Positions 19,672-60,304 of a stretch of 64,000 nucleotides of DNA are shown piece after piece. This DNA comes from Acidithiobacillus ferridurans. Its GTDB lineage: Bacteria > Pseudomonadota > Gammaproteobacteria > Acidithiobacillales > Acidithiobacillaceae. The notes beneath the pieces were generated by a model. That model was given only the letters and a program-made list of their open reading frames with translations, ran no database searches and was not told the origin of the DNA. Position numbers and translations under genes: made by a program. Where the stretch lies: contig NZ_AP018795.1 of the NCBI RefSeq assembly GCF_003966655.1, forward strand, positions 2,125,501-2,189,500. Direction: 5' to 3'. The stretch's first letter is position 1. Every line of letters starts with the position of its first letter.

Positions 19672-22600
19672 ATGGCACAGATACCGGCGCAGCGGATGGA
19701 TCAGAGGTTGATGCAGGAAGGGCGGCGCACCCGGGGCACGCTCTATTTCGGCATCGGACTGGGGCTGGCGGCTGGCCTGCTAATCATTCTCCAGGCCTTT
19801 CTGTTGGCGCACATCGTCGATGATGTCTCTTTTCATGGCTGGAATCTGGCGGCCGTGATGCCGCTGCTCTGGGTCATGCTCGCTCTTTTCGTCGTGCGTG
19901 CGGGATTTTCCTGGGCGAGCGAACTGGTTGCCTTTCGCGCCAGCGCGCGTATCAAGACCTACCTGCGCGAGCGCCTGCTTTCCCACCTTCTGAACCTGGG
20001 ACCGGTGGCCGTGGCGGGTGAGCGCAGCGCCGACATCGCCAGTACCATGATGGAAGGTGTTGAGGCGCTGGAGCCTTACTTTTCGCGTTACCTGCCGCAA
20101 ATGGCCTTGGTCAGCCTCATACCGCTGGCCATCCTCGTGTTCGTTTTCCCCGCAGACTGGATCAGCGGCCTGATTCTCCTCGTCGCCGGGCCGCTCGTGC
20201 CTTTCTTCATGGTGCTGGTGGGTTACAAGGCGGAGGCCATCAACCAGCGTCAGTGGCGCAAGATGCTGTTGATGAGCGCCCATTTTCTGGATATGGTGCA
20301 GGGCTTGACCACGCTGAAAATCTTCGGCCGCGCCAAGGACGAGATCGAGATCGTCGCACGTATTTCGGATGACTACCGGCGCACCACCATGGCTGGGTTG
20401 CGGGTGGCCTTCCTGACGTCGGCGGTGCTGGAATTTTTTGCGAGCGTGTCCATCGCGCTGGTGGCGGTATCATTGGGTGCGCGTCTGCTGGAAATCCCTC
20501 CCCCGGTCACCTTTTATACTGCCTTCTTTGTCCTTTTACTGGCACCGGAGTATTTCAACCCTCTGCGTGGCCTCGCCACCCATTATCATGCGCGGATGAG
20601 CGCCATTGCCGCCGCCAGACGCATCTTCGACATCCTCGACATGCCGCTGCCGGCACAGGGTACGCAGATGATGGCGTACCCAGACACCCAGTCCGTCAGT
20701 CTCTCGGTGCGCGACCTGCATTTCTCCTATGAGGAGGGCCGGGTGGCGCTGGCGGGAATCAATGCCGAGTTCCCGGCGGGCAAGGTCACCGCGCTGGTGG
20801 GCGCCAGCGGGGCGGGCAAGAGCACCCTCGCCAGTGCGTTGCTCGGCTTTGTGCAACCGGATTCGGGAGAAATCCTGATCAATGGCCGGATCCCTTTGGC
20901 CGTCCTGGATCGGGAAAGCTGGTGGCGGCAACTGGCCTGGGTACCGCAGAATCCCCGCCTGTTTCACGGTACCATCGCCGAAAATATCCGCATCGGCCGC
21001 CCTGATGCGGATATGGCCGCCCTGCGGGAGGCCGCGAAAAATGCTCACGCGCTGGAATTTATCGACGCTTTGCCGCGGGGCTTCGATACCTCGGTGGGTG
21101 ATCTGGGGCAGGGCCTTTCCGGCGGGCAGATTCAGCGTGTCGCCCTGGCCCGCGCCTTTATCAAAAACCCACCGCTCTTCATTCTGGATGAGGCTACGGC
21201 GAGTCTGGACATGGAGAATGAATCGCTGGTCCTGGACGCCATGCAGCGGCTGATCCAGGGACGAACGGCGATCGTTATTGCGCACCGCCTGGCGATGGCA
21301 GAGCGCGCCGATCACATCCTGGTCATGGACGCCGGGAAAGTGGTCGAAGCCGGCACCCATGATGCACTTTTGGCGGCCGGCGGTGTCTACGCAAGGCTGG
21401 CGGCCGCCTATCGGGGGAGCATGCGTGATCTTTACCGGCTGCTGAAGCTGTTTGGGCCCTTTAAGTTCTGGATGCTGGGGGGCGCCTTTCTGGCGCTGCT
21501 GACCATTCTTTCCAATTTCGGTCTGCTGGCCCTTTCCGGCTGGTTCCTGGCGAGTGCGGCGCTGGCCGGACTGGGTGGTTACGCCACCATGAATTTGTAT
21601 AACTTCTTCCTGCCGGCTGCCGGGGTGCGCGCTTTCGCGACGATTCGGGTCATCTCGCGTTGGCTGGAGCGCATTGTCACCCATGAGGCGACGTTCCGTC
21701 TGCTGGCCCAGTTGCGCACCTGGTTCTACACCCGCCTCGAGCCGCTCGCGCCCGCCGGGCTGCAAGATTATCGTTCCGGCGATATTCTTTCGCGCCTCGT
21801 CGCCGATATCGATACCCTGAATAACTTTTACCTGCGGGTGTTTACGCCGTTTCTGGTGGCCGGGGTGGCGACGCTCACAATGGCGGGCGTCTTCGCTTTT
21901 TTCTCCTGGCGGTTGGCCATTGCACTCTTTCTTTTCCTCGCAGTTACCGGTCTGCTTCTACCGTTCCTCACGGAGCGGCTAGGTGCGCGCAGTGGCGCCG
22001 AGATGACCGGCATCCAGTCGGACTACCGGGTACAGGTGGTGGACGGCATGCAGGGCATGGCGGAACTGTTGACCTACAATGCCGGACCAGAGATTCTGCG
22101 ACGCACGGGTACACTCAACGATGCGCTGCTCCGGCGGCAGGCCCGCATGGCGCAGATCGCCGGTTTCGGCAGCGCCGGCATGGGATTCATGGGCAACTTG
22201 GCGATTTGGGTTGTCGTGGTGCTGGCCATTCCTCTGGTCCATGGCAAGGTCCTGGGCGATTCGGATCTGCCCCTCCTTGCCCTCGGCGTGATGGGTTCCT
22301 TCGAGGCCATCGCCGCCTTGCCGCTGGCCTTTCAGTTTCTGGGGCAAACCCGCGCGGCCGCGCGCCGTATTTTTGAGGTGGCGGATACGCCCTTGCCTTT
22401 TCCGGATGCACCGGGACCCGCACCGCAGGTGGGTCGGCCGGATCTGGAGCTCAAGGGTCTGCACCTGCGCTATCCCGGCGCTCAACGCGACGCCCTGGCA
22501 GGCGTGGACCTCAGCGTGTCGGCGGGCACACGGGTTGCGATCCTGGGGGCGACCGGGGCTGGCAAGAGCAGCCTCGCCAACCTGCTGCTGCGTTTCTATG

Positions 22601-23178
22601 ACTATCAGTCGGGCCACGCGTGTCTGGGCGGCCATGAGTTGCGGGATTTCCCGGCAGACAATCTGCGCGCATATTTCGCTGTCGTATCTCAGCGCTCATA
22701 TCTCTTTCACAGTACGATCCGCGACAACCTGCTGGTGGCCAAGGGCGAGGCGGAGGAGGATGAGCTCTGGGCGGCGCTGGCCACGGCACAGCTTGCGGAG
22801 TTCGTGCGCAGTCAGCCCCAGGGCCTGGATACCATTGTCGGCGAAGGCGGCGTGAAACTCTCCGGTGGTCAGGGCCGAAGAGTGGCCATTGCCCGGGCTA
22901 TTCTCAAGGACGCTCCGTGGCTGATTCTGGATGAGCCGACCGAAGGGCTCGATCCGGTGACCGAGATGGAGTTCCTCAAAGATCTGCGCCAGATCATGGA
23001 AGGTCGCACCGTGCTCTATATTACCCACCGTCTGGTGGGTCTGGAGCACATGGACTGCGTTCATATTCTCGACGAGGGGCGGATCGTGGAGTCGGGAACC
23101 TATGGGGAGCTTTTACAGCGGGATGGACAACTCAGCCATTTCGCCACGTTCCGGCAGGCTATTCCGGAGGTTCACTAA
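19672..23178 (+). CDS. cydDC: CydD-CydC single-chain ABC exporter (cysteine/glutathione export for cytochrome bd)
   Basis: One uninterrupted 1168-residue chain. Residues 1-583 are a complete CydD: exporter domain, Walker A GASGAGKST (about 376), signature LSGGQIQRVALAR and LDEATASLD. Residues 584-1168, beginning MRDLYRLLKLFG, are a complete CydC: second exporter domain, Walker A GATGAGKSS (about 959), signature LSGGQGRRVAIAR and LDEPTEGLD. In E. coli these are two proteins forming a heterodimer that exports thiols needed for cytochrome bd and c assembly. The start ATG 19672 has AGAGG six bases upstream. A GGGGGAG before Met584 may be a relic of, or a live, internal cydC start. No cydAB is in the window. 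Confidence 0.9.
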   Translation: MAQIPAQRMDQRLMQEGRRTRGTLYFGIGLGLAAGLLIILQAFLLAHIVDDVSFHGWNLAAVMPLLWVMLALFVVRAGFSWASELVAFRASARIKTYLRERLLSHLLNLGPVAVAGERSADIASTMMEGVEALEPYFSRYLPQMALVSLIPLAILVFVFPADWISGLILLVAGPLVPFFMVLVGYKAEAINQRQWRKMLLMSAHFLDMVQGLTTLKIFGRAKDEIEIVARISDDYRRTTMAGLRVAFLTSAVLEFFASVSIALVAVSLGARLLEIPPPVTFYTAFFVLLLAPEYFNPLRGLATHYHARMSAIAAARRIFDILDMPLPAQGTQMMAYPDTQSVSLSVRDLHFSYEEGRVALAGINAEFPAGKVTALVGASGAGKSTLASALLGFVQPDSGEILINGRIPLAVLDRESWWRQLAWVPQNPRLFHGTIAENIRIGRPDADMAALREAAKNAHALEFIDALPRGFDTSVGDLGQGLSGGQIQRVALARAFIKNPPLFILDEATASLDMENESLVLDAMQRLIQGRTAIVIAHRLAMAERADHILVMDAGKVVEAGTHDALLAAGGVYARLAAAYRGSMRDLYRLLKLFGPFKFWMLGGAFLALLTILSNFGLLALSGWFLASAALAGLGGYATMNLYNFFLPAAGVRAFATIRVISRWLERIVTHEATFRLLAQLRTWFYTRLEPLAPAGLQDYRSGDILSRLVADIDTLNNFYLRVFTPFLVAGVATLTMAGVFAFFSWRLAIALFLFLAVTGLLLPFLTERLGARSGAEMTGIQSDYRVQVVDGMQGMAELLTYNAGPEILRRTGTLNDALLRRQARMAQIAGFGSAGMGFMGNLAIWVVVVLAIPLVHGKVLGDSDLPLLALGVMGSFEAIAALPLAFQFLGQTRAAARRIFEVADTPLPFPDAPGPAPQVGRPDLELKGLHLRYPGAQRDALAGVDLSVSAGTRVAILGATGAGKSSLANLLLRFYDYQSGHACLGGHELRDFPADNLRAYFAVVSQRSYLFHSTIRDNLLVAKGEAEEDELWAALATAQLAEFVRSQPQGLDTIVGEGGVKLSGGQGRRVAIARAILKDAPWLILDEPTEGLDPVTEMEFLKDLRQIMEGRTVLYITHRLVGLEHMDCVHILDEGRIVESGTYGELLQRDGQLSHFATFRQAIPEVH

Positions 23179-28074: not shown

Positions 28075-29549
28075 TTGAAAAATTGTGTGCTGGGTGGACA
28101 GCGCCTTGTGGTGGCGCTTTGTATGGGTTTGGGATGGAGTATCGGGGCGATGACGCCTGCTTGGGCGGATTCCGGTGCCAGCGGCCAGGCGCTGGTGGGG
28201 CTGCCTGATTTTACGCCCATCGTCAAACAGTATGGACCTGCAGTAGTGAACATCAGCACGACGGAGACCAGGGTGGCGCGTGGTACGGCCTCCCCTTCCC
28301 GCCGAACTCTCCCCTGAATCAGTTTTTCGCCCCCTTCTTTGGCGCACCGGGGCAACCTGGAGCGCCTGGTGGCGGAGCCGGACAGAAATATCAGGTGCAA
28401 TCCCTGGGGTCCGGTTTTGTCGTCAGCTCCGACGGCTATATCGTGACTGCGGCGCATGTAGTGAAAGGGGCGCAGAAGATCATCGTCAGTCTCACCAATC
28501 ACCATCAATACGCGGCTCACCTGGTGGGCCTGTCGGCGCGTATGGATGTGGCGTTGCTCAAAATTGACGCGAAGAATCTGCCGGTGGTACAGATTGGTGA
28601 CTCCAGCAAACTGGAAGTCGGACAGTGGGTGCTGGCGGTGGGTTCGCCCTTCGGCTTTGAGAACAGCGTCACCCAGGGTGTGATCAGTGCGACCTCGCGG
28701 CCTTTGCCGGATGATCCCTACATCCCGTTCGTTCAAACGGATGTGCCGATCAACCCTGGTAACTCCGGTGGCCCGCTATTCAATATGCGCGGCCAGGTCA
28801 TTGGTATCAACGACCAGATCTATACCAATAGCGGTGGCTACATGGGCTTGTCTTTCTCCATCCCCATCAATGTCGCCATGGATGCGGTCAAACAGTTAAA
28901 ACTGCATCAGAAAGTGCATTTTGGCTGGCTCGGGGTCATGATTCAGGATGTCAGTATGGATCTCGCCAAGTCCTTCCACATGAAAGAGCCGGTAGGCGCG
29001 CTGGTGTCACAGGTTGTGCCTGGCGGCCCGGCTGCCAAGGCAGGGTTGCGTCCGGGAGATGTCATCGTCTCCTTTGACGGTCAGGCCATCTATAACTCTG
29101 GCCAACTACCGCCGCTGGTAGGGGTATTGCCCGCCGGCTTCAAGGCGAAGCTGGGGGTTATCCGTGATGGCAAGCCCATGAGCCTCAACATCGTGGTGGA
29201 GAGCCTGCCCGGCAACCTGGAGAATACGGTGGAATCCGCCGCATCCAGCGGTCCGGCGCAGGAAGGTGAAGTCAAACGACTGAATGTGCAGGTGGGTCCG
29301 CTGACCGCGGAGGCACGTAAGCAACTGCACGTGAATACTGGTGTCCTGGTCCTCGGGGTTGGTGTGGGGTCGGCGGCGGAAGCCGGTATTCGTCCCGGTG
29401 ATGTGATCTTGCAGGTGGCTCAACAGCAGATTACCAGTGCCGCCGACTTGCAGAAGCTGGTGGCTGCCTTGCCGGCGGGTCAGCCGATCCCGGTGCTGGT
29501 GCGACGTGGTGAGGGGAGTTTCTATCTGGTGCTTTCGCTGCCGCATTGA
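28075..29549 (+). pseudogene. degP: DegP/MucD-type periplasmic serine protease, one frameshift
   Basis: The first frame (TTG 28075, GGAGG four bases upstream) encodes a signal peptide and the mature start DFTPIVKQYGPAVVNISTTE. It then runs to a stop at 28317. Adding one base in the CCCC run near 28294 moves it into the frame FPPNSPLNQFFAPFFG and on through the protease. Catalytic His (TAAHVV), Asp (ARMDVALLKID) and Ser (NPGNSGGPL) are intact, followed by two PDZ domains. As written, only a fragment from an internal GTG at 28395 without signal peptide could be made. Sequencing error is a serious alternative to a true pseudogene, given the intact remainder. Confidence 0.85.
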
Positions 29550-56602: not shown

Positions 56603-57174
56603 TCATCCAGATATGCAACGGATACCGCGCGGTCCTCCTCCCGGTCCTCATGATTAGTTAGCGGTTTTTCGAGTTGGTGCCCAAGCACGAATCCCAATAT
56701 TAAATGATGTGTCCATAGAATAATTTATTAATCATTTATCTAATTGATTATTATCCTATTTAATAGCATGGCGAATCTGTTGCGGATCAATCCTGTCGAT
56801 TGGTTGACATTCGGCTGAAAAAGAATTACATCTGCAGCATACAAAACGATAAACGCATGTTAACATATTCGTTACATGCATCTGTTCGGCATCGAGTACT
56901 GATGGAGATGGGTTTTCCATACGCTCTGGTCCCAATCAGGCGGAGTGCCTGTGCGGTGGTCGCAGGACTGCGTATTGCGGTCAAAGGCGAGCAGCGCGAT
57001 GGCCGTAGTTCTTTTGTGAATATGTATCAGTTAGTTACCATGTTTGTGAATGCTAACAAGGCAAGTCGCAGTTCGTAATATTTGGGATATTTCGATGTCG
57101 GGGGATTTATCTTTCGGCGCGAATTGCTAACGAAGTGGCAACAAAGGCAGAAACATCAAAAAGGGAGATCAAAT
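56603..57174. other. Long AT-rich leader before the cytochrome-porin gene
   Basis: About 570 bases without a convincing gene; the one short frame (56800-57078) has no ribosome site or family features. Bases 56690-56770 are strikingly AT-rich for this genome. A possible promoter is TTGACA at 56804 followed 17 bases later by TACATC. The region between could be a long untranslated leader or regulatory region for the cytochrome operon. Confidence 0.45.
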
Positions 57175-58610
57175 ATGAAAATTCAGTCGCGGAGCAGCAT
57201 GCAGTGGAAGCACAAAATTCGTTGGGCTACATGCGCTACATTTATGGTTGGGGCGGCCGCATGTTCGGGCAATGCGCTGGCATTGCCGACATTCGCCCGT
57301 CAGACTGGCTGGTCGTGCGCAACGTGCCATACATCCTATCCTCAACTCACCCCCATGGGTCGTATGTTCAAGCTGCTGGGATATACCAGTAATAATGTTC
57401 AGCGGCAGCAGAAGCTGGAAGCAAAGTTTGGAAAAAGCACCGCACTTCTGCTGATGCGTGTGTCACAGTTTTCGATTTTTTTTCAGGCGAGCTATGCCAA
57501 TGTGGCCGGGGCCAGGAGGCCTTTAATGGGGCGGGGGTATCCAACCCGCCGGGTAACCAGAATGACATTCAATTTCCGCAACAGGTGAGTTTATTCTATG
57601 CGGGGGAAATCACCCCCCATATCGGTGCATTCCTGCATCTGACATACAGCGGCCGAGGCGGTTTCGGTATGGATGACAGCGACATCCGTTGGGCGCACCC
57701 ATGGAACCTGGGTCCCGATCAACTGCTGATCACCGGTGTCGAAGTGAATAATACACCGACCGAGCCGGACATCTACAACACGGTACCAGACTGGTATGCG
57801 CCATTCTCGAGTTCCAAATATAGTGCCATCCGGCAGATACCCACCACCTTTATCGAAGGGGCGCATGGCGCCGGTTATCCTCTTGCGGGTATCGGCACTT
57901 ACGAAGCCTATATTTTTGGGCAGGATAAGGCCAACTGGCTCTACTTCGAGGCGGACGGATACACCAACGCGGACGGTATTGGTGTACAGCCGAACTCCGG
58001 AGGAGCATTCGGATATGCTAATGACGGCAGAATGCAGGGTGTCGCCCCCTATGTTCGTCTGGCCTATCAGCGCGACTGGGGTAACTGGAACTGGGAAGTC
58101 GGTACCTATGGGATGTGGAGTCGCCTGTACGATAGTCCCAACACCAAAGGCGGTCCGGTAGACAGTTTCGATGATTATGATCTGGATAGCCAATTGCAAT
58201 GGCTGGATACGGCGGACAACAGCAATGTCACGCTGCACGCGGACTGGATACACGAGGACCAGACATTTGGTCCAGGTACTACTCTTTCAAGTTCTACAAC
58301 TGGAAATCTCAATTCCCTCAATATAAATGGTTCCTACTGGTACCATGATCATTATGGTGTATCTGGTGGATATCTGGACACCTGGGGTTCTGCCAACCCT
58401 GATCTCTGGGGAACGAGCTATTCCGATAACGGATCTCCGGATACCAACGGAGAATGGATCGAGGCGTCTTATTTGCCCTGGTGGAACACCAGATTCTCGT
58501 TGCGGTATACCATGTTTAACCAATTTCGCGGGCTGACGAACAGTACGGCCACGAGTTTCGGCGCTTCGGCATACAATACGCTTGAGCTGCTGACCTGGAT
58601 ATCATTTTAA
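57175..58610 (+). pseudogene. Cyc2-like outer-membrane cytochrome-porin, one frameshift
   Basis: The gene encodes a signal peptide (to about residue 36), one haem site GWSCATCHTSY (C48, C51, H52) with the follow-on PMGRMFKLLGY, and then about 400 residues of alternating, aromatic-rich beta-strand sequence ending in LLTWISF, typical of an outer-membrane barrel. Length after repair is 478 residues, close to Cyc2-type proteins. The frame breaks near 57520 in GGGGCC; one added base restores AQEAFNGAGVSNPPGNQ and joins the rest. GGGAGA precedes ATG 57175. Cyc2 family members oxidise Fe(II) at the cell surface; the donor here is not known. A sequencing error may explain the break. Confidence 0.78.
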
Positions 58611-58624
58611 GGAGGGGGTGGGCT

Positions 58625-59266
58625 ATGTATCTTGTATTATCATCGAATCGTTTCGCTCCTTCCAAAAAGAAGGGTGTCATTCGCAGTGCCGCCGTAGCGT
58701 TGGCGATATGGAGCGCCGGTCCAGCACTGGCGCAGGTGCCACAATCTGTCCATCAGTCATGTATGATCTGCCACGGCCAGACCGGCGAAAATACCATCTA
58801 TCCGATGGTTCCGCGCCTGAGTGGTCAGCAGGTGCAATATCTGGCATGGCAACTGAAGCAGTTCAAGGCGCATACCCGTGCGGATCAAAATGCGCAGATT
58901 TACATGTGGCCTGTCGCGCAGGCCATGAGTCAGAAGGAAATCCAGTCAGTTGCGAAGTATTATGCGGCGCAATCGCCCATGCACAGCGCATCCTCGCCAC
59001 GTCCCGGAGTCTCCGCGGGTAAGCAGATATTCCTGCAGGGCATCGCTGCGCAGGGTGTTCCCGCGTGTATGGCCTGCCACGCCGTGAACGCGACAGGTCG
59101 AGGGATATTTCCGCGATTGGCCGGGCAGCGATACGCATATATCGTTCAGCAGCTAAGCTATCTGCATGATGGAAACCGGGTGAATCCCATCATGCAGCCA
59201 GTGGCAGAAAAGCTGACAAACCGGCAAATGCAGGATGTGGCGGCTTATCTGTCCGGTCTGCATTGA
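58625..59266 (+). CDS. Dihaem cytochrome c4-type periplasmic protein
   Basis: A 213-residue protein with a signal peptide (cleavage near ALA-QV) and two homologous cytochrome c domains carrying CMICH and CMACH. Distal methionines are available in each domain (VAQAMSQKE and IMQPVAEKL). This is the c4 layout, the class that takes electrons from Cyc2 in Acidithiobacillus. It starts 14 bases after the cytochrome-porin stop with GGAGG upstream, so the two genes form an operon and probably an electron path from surface to inner membrane. Confidence 0.9.
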   Translation: MYLVLSSNRFAPSKKKGVIRSAAVALAIWSAGPALAQVPQSVHQSCMICHGQTGENTIYPMVPRLSGQQVQYLAWQLKQFKAHTRADQNAQIYMWPVAQAMSQKEIQSVAKYYAAQSPMHSASSPRPGVSAGKQIFLQGIAAQGVPACMACHAVNATGRGIFPRLAGQRYAYIVQQLSYLHDGNRVNPIMQPVAEKLTNRQMQDVAAYLSGLH

Positions 59267-59337: not shown

Positions 59338-60304
59338 TTATACCAGATGCTCCCCGGCCAGCTTGCAGGGATGGCCCGGATCGCCTGTTTCCACTTGCAA
59401 GGTAGGATGGACGATCTGAAAATGCGCGCGCAATTCCTCACCGATTTCATGGAGCAGCGCATCGCCGGGATAGCAGTCGGGCATGACCAGATGCGCAGTC
59501 AGCGCAGTTTCGGTGGTGCTCATGGCCCAGATATGCAGGTCGTGCACGGCCGTGACGTTGGGTATCCCAAGCAAATAAACCCGTACTGCGTCGATGTCGA
59601 TACCCGGGGGACGCCGTGCAGCGCCAGATGGGCGGAGTCACGCAATAAACCCCAGGTAGCCATCACAATCAACGCGCTGATCAGCAGACTAGCTGCAGAG
59701 TCCAGCCAGAACCAGTGGGTGAACAGCATCACGATCCCCGCCACCACTACGCCCAAAGAGATCGCTGCGTCGCCTGCCATGTGCAAAAACGCCGCACGGA
59801 TATTCAAGTCGCCTTTTCGTCCCGACATGAAGAGCAGGGCCGTCCCCGTGTTGATCACTACCCCGAAGGCCGCCACACCGATTACGACGACACTTGCTAC
59901 GGAGGCCGGGTGCAGCAGCCGCTCAATGGCTTCCCAGGCGATGCCGCCGGTGACCACCAACAGAAAGACGGCGTTCGCCAGCGCCGCGAGAATGGACGAA
60001 CTGCGTAGTCCATAGGTAAATCGCCCCGAAGGGGGCGGTTGGCGAGGGCACTCGCTCCCCAGGCCATGAGCAGCCCCAGAACGTCACTGAGGTTATGGCC
60101 GGCATCTGCCAGCAGCGCGAGGGAATGCCCAAGCACCCCGAACACCGCCTCGGTCAATACGAAGCTCAGATTGAGTCCAATGCCGATCGCAAAAGCACGG
60201 CCATTCACGGGGGCATGACCATGTGCTCCATGGCGGTGCCCGTGATCATGAGGGGGCGCATGGGTATGCGGGGATTCTGCATGATCGGTGTGGTTGTGTG
60301 CCAT
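59338..60304 (-). pseudogene. CzcD-type cation diffusion facilitator, two frameshifts
   Basis: The His-rich N-terminus (HNHTDHAESPHTHAPPHDHG), FVLTEAVFG, LADAGHNLSDVLGL (metal-site HxxxD), the later AAFLHMAGDAAISLG (second HxxxD) and the C-terminal cytoplasmic domain ending KLAGEHLV are all recognisable. The frame breaks at about 60037 (C run) and about 59607 (CCCCCGGG). One added base at each place gives a 322-residue intact CDF exporter for Zn, Co or Cd. GGAGG precedes the ATG at 60304. With two single-base losses in G/C runs and otherwise sound sequence, read error is plausible. Confidence 0.82.

Follow-up and report, generated by a model that had tools for sequence, protein, structure and literature searches.

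The genome of Acidithiobacillus ferridurans JCM 18981 contains a complete rus operon (cyc2-cyc1-ORF-coxBACD-rus) with an intact cyc2, and it carries a further cyc2-like gene followed by a cyc1-like gene, which raises the question of what this second pair is connected to and in which direction it may carry electrons. The pair lies in the window, i.e. the whole stretch of 64,000 bases that was analysed (positions 2,125,501–2,189,500 of a host genome of one contig and 2,921,399 bases; Table 1). The initial annotation described it as a candidate surface conduit, in which a single-haem N-terminus fused to a beta-barrel would pass electrons from Fe(II) to a dihaem cytochrome in the periplasm. Cyc2 is present in 11 of the 29 genomes of the family. 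A search of a plasmid collection gave no match.

Table 1. Coordinates of the cyc2B-cyc1B pair and of related features in A. ferridurans JCM 18981 (window positions, except for the last two lines, which give genome positions)
Feature	Position	Strand	Remarks
32-base leader block common to the petII leader; candidate regulatory/promoter element	57026–57057	+	ATCAGTTARTYACCANGTTNGYGNATGCTAAC
cyc2B 5' piece (signal peptide, Cyc2 motif, single haem site)	57175–57588	+	137 codons; out of frame after 57511; stop 57586–57588
CATCH haem-binding site of Cyc2B	57316–57330	+	ALPTFARQT before, PQL after (direct reading)
Frame break in cyc2B	57508–57511	+	run of 4 G, A. ferrooxidans has 5; probable assembly error
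cyc2B 3' piece (beta-barrel/porin part)	57510–58610	+	second frame; stop 58608–58610; ends in Phe
cyc1B, dihaem c4-type cytochrome	58625–59266	+	intact; CMICH and CMACH sites; starts 14 bases past the barrel stop
rus operon (Cyc2A/Cyc1A)	G000:C1:1.382–1.389 Mb	minus	
Rusticyanin gene of the rus operon	1,381,867–1,382,292		

The single-haem N-terminus is borne out, as the frame opened at 57175 has, by direct reading, a signal-peptide-like start followed by the motif ALPTFARQTGWSCATCHTSYPQL. Cyc2 proteins are defined by AXPXFAR[QK][TY] five residues before CXXCH and by PXL four residues after it (PMC8406198), and both elements are found in ALPTFARQTGWSCATCHTSYPQL, in agreement with the Cyc2-like nature first proposed. 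The fusion of this N-terminus to the barrel does not hold for the deposited sequence, where cyc2B is divided between two frames that had been joined unnoticed. A further mark of Cyc2 is one frame totalling at least 365–400 residues; the deposited gene is split, and its intact orthologues (481–482 residues) are single frames of 482 codons in A. ferrooxidans and 481 codons in A. ferruginosus. Over the full length, cyc2B shares 95.6% nucleotide identity with the A. ferrooxidans gene. The phenylalanine that closes the barrel piece is typical of outer-membrane proteins, and strand predictions for the unbroken A. ferruginosus orthologue alternate along the barrel region, giving a porin-like secondary structure. 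The best Foldseek matches of a structure model of this orthologue are also outer-membrane barrels, where the model, built from 11 sequences, is of low confidence (mean pLDDT 47.9) and is counted as weak support only. No Cyc2 model in Pfam or NCBIfam recognises either cyc2B piece, a profile search of solved structures with Cyc2 returned chance matches only, and sigma-70 and terminator scans around cyc2B-cyc1B gave nothing above chance. Phylogeny, the check first suggested for the barrel, yields one clade (96/98) of 16 rows, including A. ferrooxidans Cyc2A, against three distant homologues, in a tree without sequences from Clusters 1 and 3. Cyc2B falls in this clade together with the A. ferrooxidans Cyc2 encoded in the rus operon, which is assigned to Cluster 2 (PMC8406198).

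The adjoining gene cyc1B encodes a dihaem c4-type cytochrome, as first described, with two CXXCH sites, about 180 residues in the mature protein, a match to Pfam Cytochrom_C (1.7e-14) and a clear relationship to the c4 cytochrome of A. ferrooxidans (PDB 1h1o; E 6.5e-63). Neither a rusticyanin nor an oxidase gene follows it, again as initially stated. The second haem site is CMECH in all rus-operon Cyc1 examined and CMACH in all Cyc1B and petII-linked Cyc1 examined, where the variable residue is Glu121 (1h1o numbering). Cyc1B thus has alanine in place of the glutamate that characterises rus-operon Cyc1, and it keeps Tyr63. Glu121 has been described as crucial for recognising rusticyanin and Tyr63 as linked to the oxidase side (PMC3561395, with reference to Malarte et al. 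2005).

The pair is identified by orthology as the published Cyc2B-Cyc1B, and the genes were therefore already known. Norris et al. 2018 is the primary paper on the two proteins. Cyc2B-Cyc1B is a named two-gene cluster of A. ferrooxidans, which is homologous to Cyc2A-Cyc1A and is found in Fe(III)-respiring cells (PMC7735108; PMC8790237). The A. ferrooxidans genes (DN052_01245-DN052_01250; Norris et al. 2018, Kucera et al. 2020) are orthologous to those described here (97% identity for Cyc2B and 95% for Cyc1B) and occupy the same syntenic locus, with the same gene order, a glycosyltransferase gene upstream and a cation-efflux gene downstream. They differ in that cyc2B is frame-broken in the JCM 18981 assembly, and in that the A. 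ferrooxidans leader has a 28-base segment immediately upstream of the ribosome-binding site which is missing from the A. ferridurans leader (window 57150–57151). The rus operon likewise encodes a single-haem cytochrome-porin with the Cyc2 motif followed by a dihaem c4 cytochrome, and within A. ferridurans Cyc2B is 64% identical to Cyc2A and Cyc1B about 52–54% to Cyc1A. However, its Cyc2 has CAACH instead of CATCH, its Cyc1 has Glu121, and coxBACD and the rusticyanin gene follow. The resemblance of Cyc2B to A. ferrooxidans Cyc2B and to the rus-operon Cyc2 of its own genome is far beyond chance. The candidate first put forward is thus a real cytochrome pair, although both its frame break and its earlier publication had been missed. 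A recent horizontal gain of an unrelated operon was considered separately and rejected, as the gene neighbourhood and the sequence are in accord with those of A. ferrooxidans and A. ferruginosus.

The frame break coincides with a run of G that is one base shorter than in A. ferrooxidans, and at this junction the A. ferruginosus sequence differs slightly and stays in frame. The JCM 18981 genome was assembled by HGAP from PacBio RS II reads at a reported coverage of 283-fold, and no second technology is mentioned (PMC6256440). One-base losses in G/C runs of at least 5 number five in A. ferridurans and none in A. ferrooxidans over ~108 kb aligned, a tally from which the segment holding cyc2B is omitted by the overlap rule, its break being listed separately; the same comparison of A. 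ferruginosus with A. ferrooxidans gives none in 52 kb. A three-way polarised strict count, which does not include cyc2B as its flanks failed the match limit, gives four losses in A. ferridurans, two losses and one gain in A. ferruginosus, and no change in A. ferrooxidans. These statistics cover stretches of about 50–110 kb. Since the excess of losses in the three-way count is only suggestive, the argument for an error leans on which genes are broken: cyc2B and the gene for a DegP-like protease are each broken by an assembly-specific one-base run loss, a cation-efflux gene is hit by two such losses, and a further one joins two ABC-transporter genes into a single frame.

Despite the high reported coverage, the two parts of the deposited cyc2B do not share a frame, and it may be asked whether the break is real, in which case cyc2B would be a recent pseudogene in JCM 18981, Cyc2A of the rus operon would be relied on, and cyc1B would survive alone. 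The intact rus-operon cyc2, as well as A. ferrianus, which manages without Cyc2B, are in line with such a loss. However, the other one-base run losses break or fuse genes of which both sister species have intact copies (among them the DegP-like protease gene and, twice, the cation-efflux gene), and in a further A. ferridurans strain (DSM 583) rus-like Cyc1/Cyc2 proteins have been observed (PMC12053936). The dN/dS ratio versus the sister species is 0.12–0.15 on both sides of the break, so that the codons look constrained, which also speaks against a pseudogene, although such values fit an error or a very recent break alike. A genuine break is accordingly rated as unlikely, though a serious contender. 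As similar one-base run losses are found elsewhere in this long-read-only assembly, a sequencing error is the probable cause of the frame break, with about double the likelihood of a true pseudogene, a reading that is argued rather than proven. For the A. ferridurans type strain, cyc2B and several other genes are probably given wrongly in the deposited genome. Programmed frameshifting is rejected, as there is no conserved slippery site and the A. ferruginosus sequence at this place is different and in frame.

The other loci with run differences can be described as follows. The cation-efflux (CDF) gene just 3' of the pair (window 59341–60304, minus strand) is out of frame, with runs one base short at 59605 and 60030; both short G/C runs were judged against A. 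ferrooxidans and A. ferruginosus and are probably assembly errors. A C run near 28295 that is short of one base interrupts the gene for a DegP-like trypsin-PDZ-PDZ protease (window 28112–29546, plus strand); both sister species have this gene intact. A 1168-codon frame (window 19672–23175, plus strand) contains two complete ABC transporter halves, which are encoded by two genes in the sister species, with a one-base G-run difference near 21417.

The gene order in relatives points to a partner for the pair. The petII operon (cycA2-sdrA2-petA2B2C2-hip) is headed by cyc2-cyc1 in three Acidithiobacillus genomes (G011, G012 and G014), where the order is NMO-like gene, cyc2, cyc1, cycA2, SDR, petA2 and petB2; petC2 and a Hip homologue are also present where the contig reaches, and the flanks are those of the petII operons in A. 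ferrooxidans and A. ferridurans. In two genomes of another genus (G023 and G024), cyc2-cyc1-cycA2 lies upstream of petA2B2C2. The petII products are a Rieske protein, a cytochrome b and a cytochrome c1 by Pfam, and the Hip homologue shows weak similarity to PioC and HiPIP, while cycA2 is named by its position in petII, its A. ferridurans orthologue (666,777–667,490) being followed immediately by the SDR and pet genes. In A. ferridurans and A. ferrooxidans, petII lacks the pair, which lies elsewhere in both genomes, and the sequences on either side of the gap are again homologous. The petII site of A. ferrianus is also without the pair, and that of G004 has a 3' remnant of cyc1B (~123 bases, 86% identical) without haem sites. 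The glycosyltransferase locus, the present site of the pair, is without it in G004, G012 and G014. In view of the absences and the remnant at petII sites and of this unoccupied locus, the likeliest history is that the pair originally stood at the head of petII and was then moved or lost in several lineages. No match to rusticyanin was found in G012, G014 and G023, all of which have petII-linked cyc2-cyc1, and none to a rus-type CoxA (type assigned by score and frame length) in the same three genomes, where each single absence is weak because the genomes are 85–91% complete. In G024, which is only 61% complete, rusticyanin is present despite the lack of Glu121 in the petII-linked Cyc1.

The two loci also have a leader sequence in common. 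With up to 3 mismatches allowed, the block given in Table 1 occurs at exactly two sites in the 2.92 Mb genome, namely before cyc2B and at 666,341–666,372 before petII, and a reversed control pattern has no match genome-wide. As the pattern was drawn from these two loci, their match is by construction, and the informative part of the search is that there is no third matching place in the genome; the block is hence not at rus. It is part of a wider block of about 50 bases, which precedes not only cyc2B but also petII in A. ferridurans and A. ferrooxidans and, in G011, G012 and G014, the petII-linked cyc2; the block is conserved in the cyc2B leaders of A. ferrooxidans and A. ferruginosus. This candidate element suggests a common regulation of cyc2B and petII.

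Cyc2B-Cyc1B is interpreted, with somewhat better than even confidence, as a second outer-membrane/periplasmic conduit that most likely works outward in anaerobic Fe(III) respiration and without rusticyanin, the break in JCM 18981 being a sequencing error and the living strain making Cyc2B. Electrons would pass from quinol to the bc1 complex II (petA2B2C2), from there to CycA2 and/or the HiPIP Hip, on to Cyc1B and to the haem of Cyc2B in its barrel, and would finally reach Fe(III) outside the cell when oxygen is absent, with rusticyanin bypassed. We infer the direction of flow, the single electron-transfer steps, the rusticyanin bypass and the error at the break; the homology, the intactness in relatives, the placement at petII, the leader block and the loss of Glu121 are read from the sequences themselves. 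In A. ferrooxidans, Cyc1B and Cyc2B rise on S0 or H2 with Fe(III) (PMC7735108), and in A. ferridurans DSM 583 the rus-like Cyc1/Cyc2 are upregulated together with petII (PMC12053936), the inducing conditions being ferric-reducing or oxygen-limited (PMC7735108; PMC12053936). The A forms are considerably more abundant than the B forms in H2-grown A. ferrooxidans (PMC7735108), which counts against an outward role of the pair. Moreover, A. ferrianus grows on H2 with Fe(III) (PMC7040056) and has rus-type Cyc2 copies only and no Cyc2B; ferric respiration in the genus can thus do without Cyc2B.

The similarity to Cyc2A and Cyc1A, together with a published model that pools the A and B variants of Cyc1 and Cyc2 with rusticyanin (PMC7735108), might indicate that the pair is a redundant copy of the rus-operon conduit, working with the same rusticyanin partner in either direction. 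This is considered rather improbable, as Glu121 is replaced by alanine in every Cyc1B examined, petII-linked cyc2-cyc1 occurs in three genomes without a rusticyanin match, and the leader block is common to petII and is not at rus. The initial proposal of a second conduit with another donor or acceptor stands in so far as there is a second copy with a likely different partner (Glu121 lost, linkage to petII), but not as a second Fe(II)-oxidising route, since an outward direction is better supported. The transfer of electrons from Fe(II) in acid media to quinone is thermodynamically uphill. An inward conduit, in which Fe(II) or another donor is oxidised and a different acceptor is fed, e.g. by reverse flow into the bc1 complex II, is improbable. 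In its favour are the Fe(II) oxidation for which Cyc2 proteins are known (PMC8406198) and the possibility of flow in both directions through a conduit. Against it, Fe(III)-reducing conditions induce the pair (PMC7735108; PMC12053936), and in the genomes that have petII-linked cyc2 but no match to a rus-type CoxA, electrons starting from the potential of Fe(II) in acid media would need to take this uphill path. The inward flow from Fe(II) to the periplasm assumed at the outset is thus replaced by outward Fe(III) reduction with the bc1 complex II as the best-supported direction.

In a 2022 review, the 2018 data are taken to support a role of the petII proteins, while the final reductase of the petII branch is called unknown (PMC8790237). 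The gene order in relatives, the lost recognition residue and the two-locus leader block point to Cyc2B-Cyc1B as the Fe(III) reductase of this branch. There is an even chance that Cyc2B is the 'still unknown reductase', connected to the bc1 complex II via CycA2/Hip and Cyc1B independently of rusticyanin, and derived from a cyc2-cyc1-petII cluster that has since been split in A. ferrooxidans and A. ferridurans with the shared leader block kept. This wiring to petII, which we infer, is the new and testable part, as arguments from the gene order, the leader block or Glu121 did not turn up in the literature searched, which did not take in Norris et al. 2018. If it is true, Cyc2 conduits can serve opposite purposes within one cell.

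Two further observations concern Cyc2 in related genomes. The petII-linked Cyc2 of G014 (L071 5686–7224) and G012 (L072 5985–7523) looks chimeric, with a B-like leader and CATCH site and a rus-like barrel that is 78–92% identical to rus-operon Cyc2, while the adjoining Cyc1 is B-like, which suggests gene conversion between paralogues. As the barrel of these petII-linked proteins resembles the rus type, the Cyc2 barrel would not be specialised for its wiring in every lineage. A. ferrianus has two rus-type cyc2 regions (L008 and L009 on contigs 30 and 38; G002:C24 and G002:C32). They encode identical Cyc2 proteins and have corresponding matches to Cyc1, rusticyanin and CoxA, and they may be either a duplicated rus operon or an assembly duplicate.
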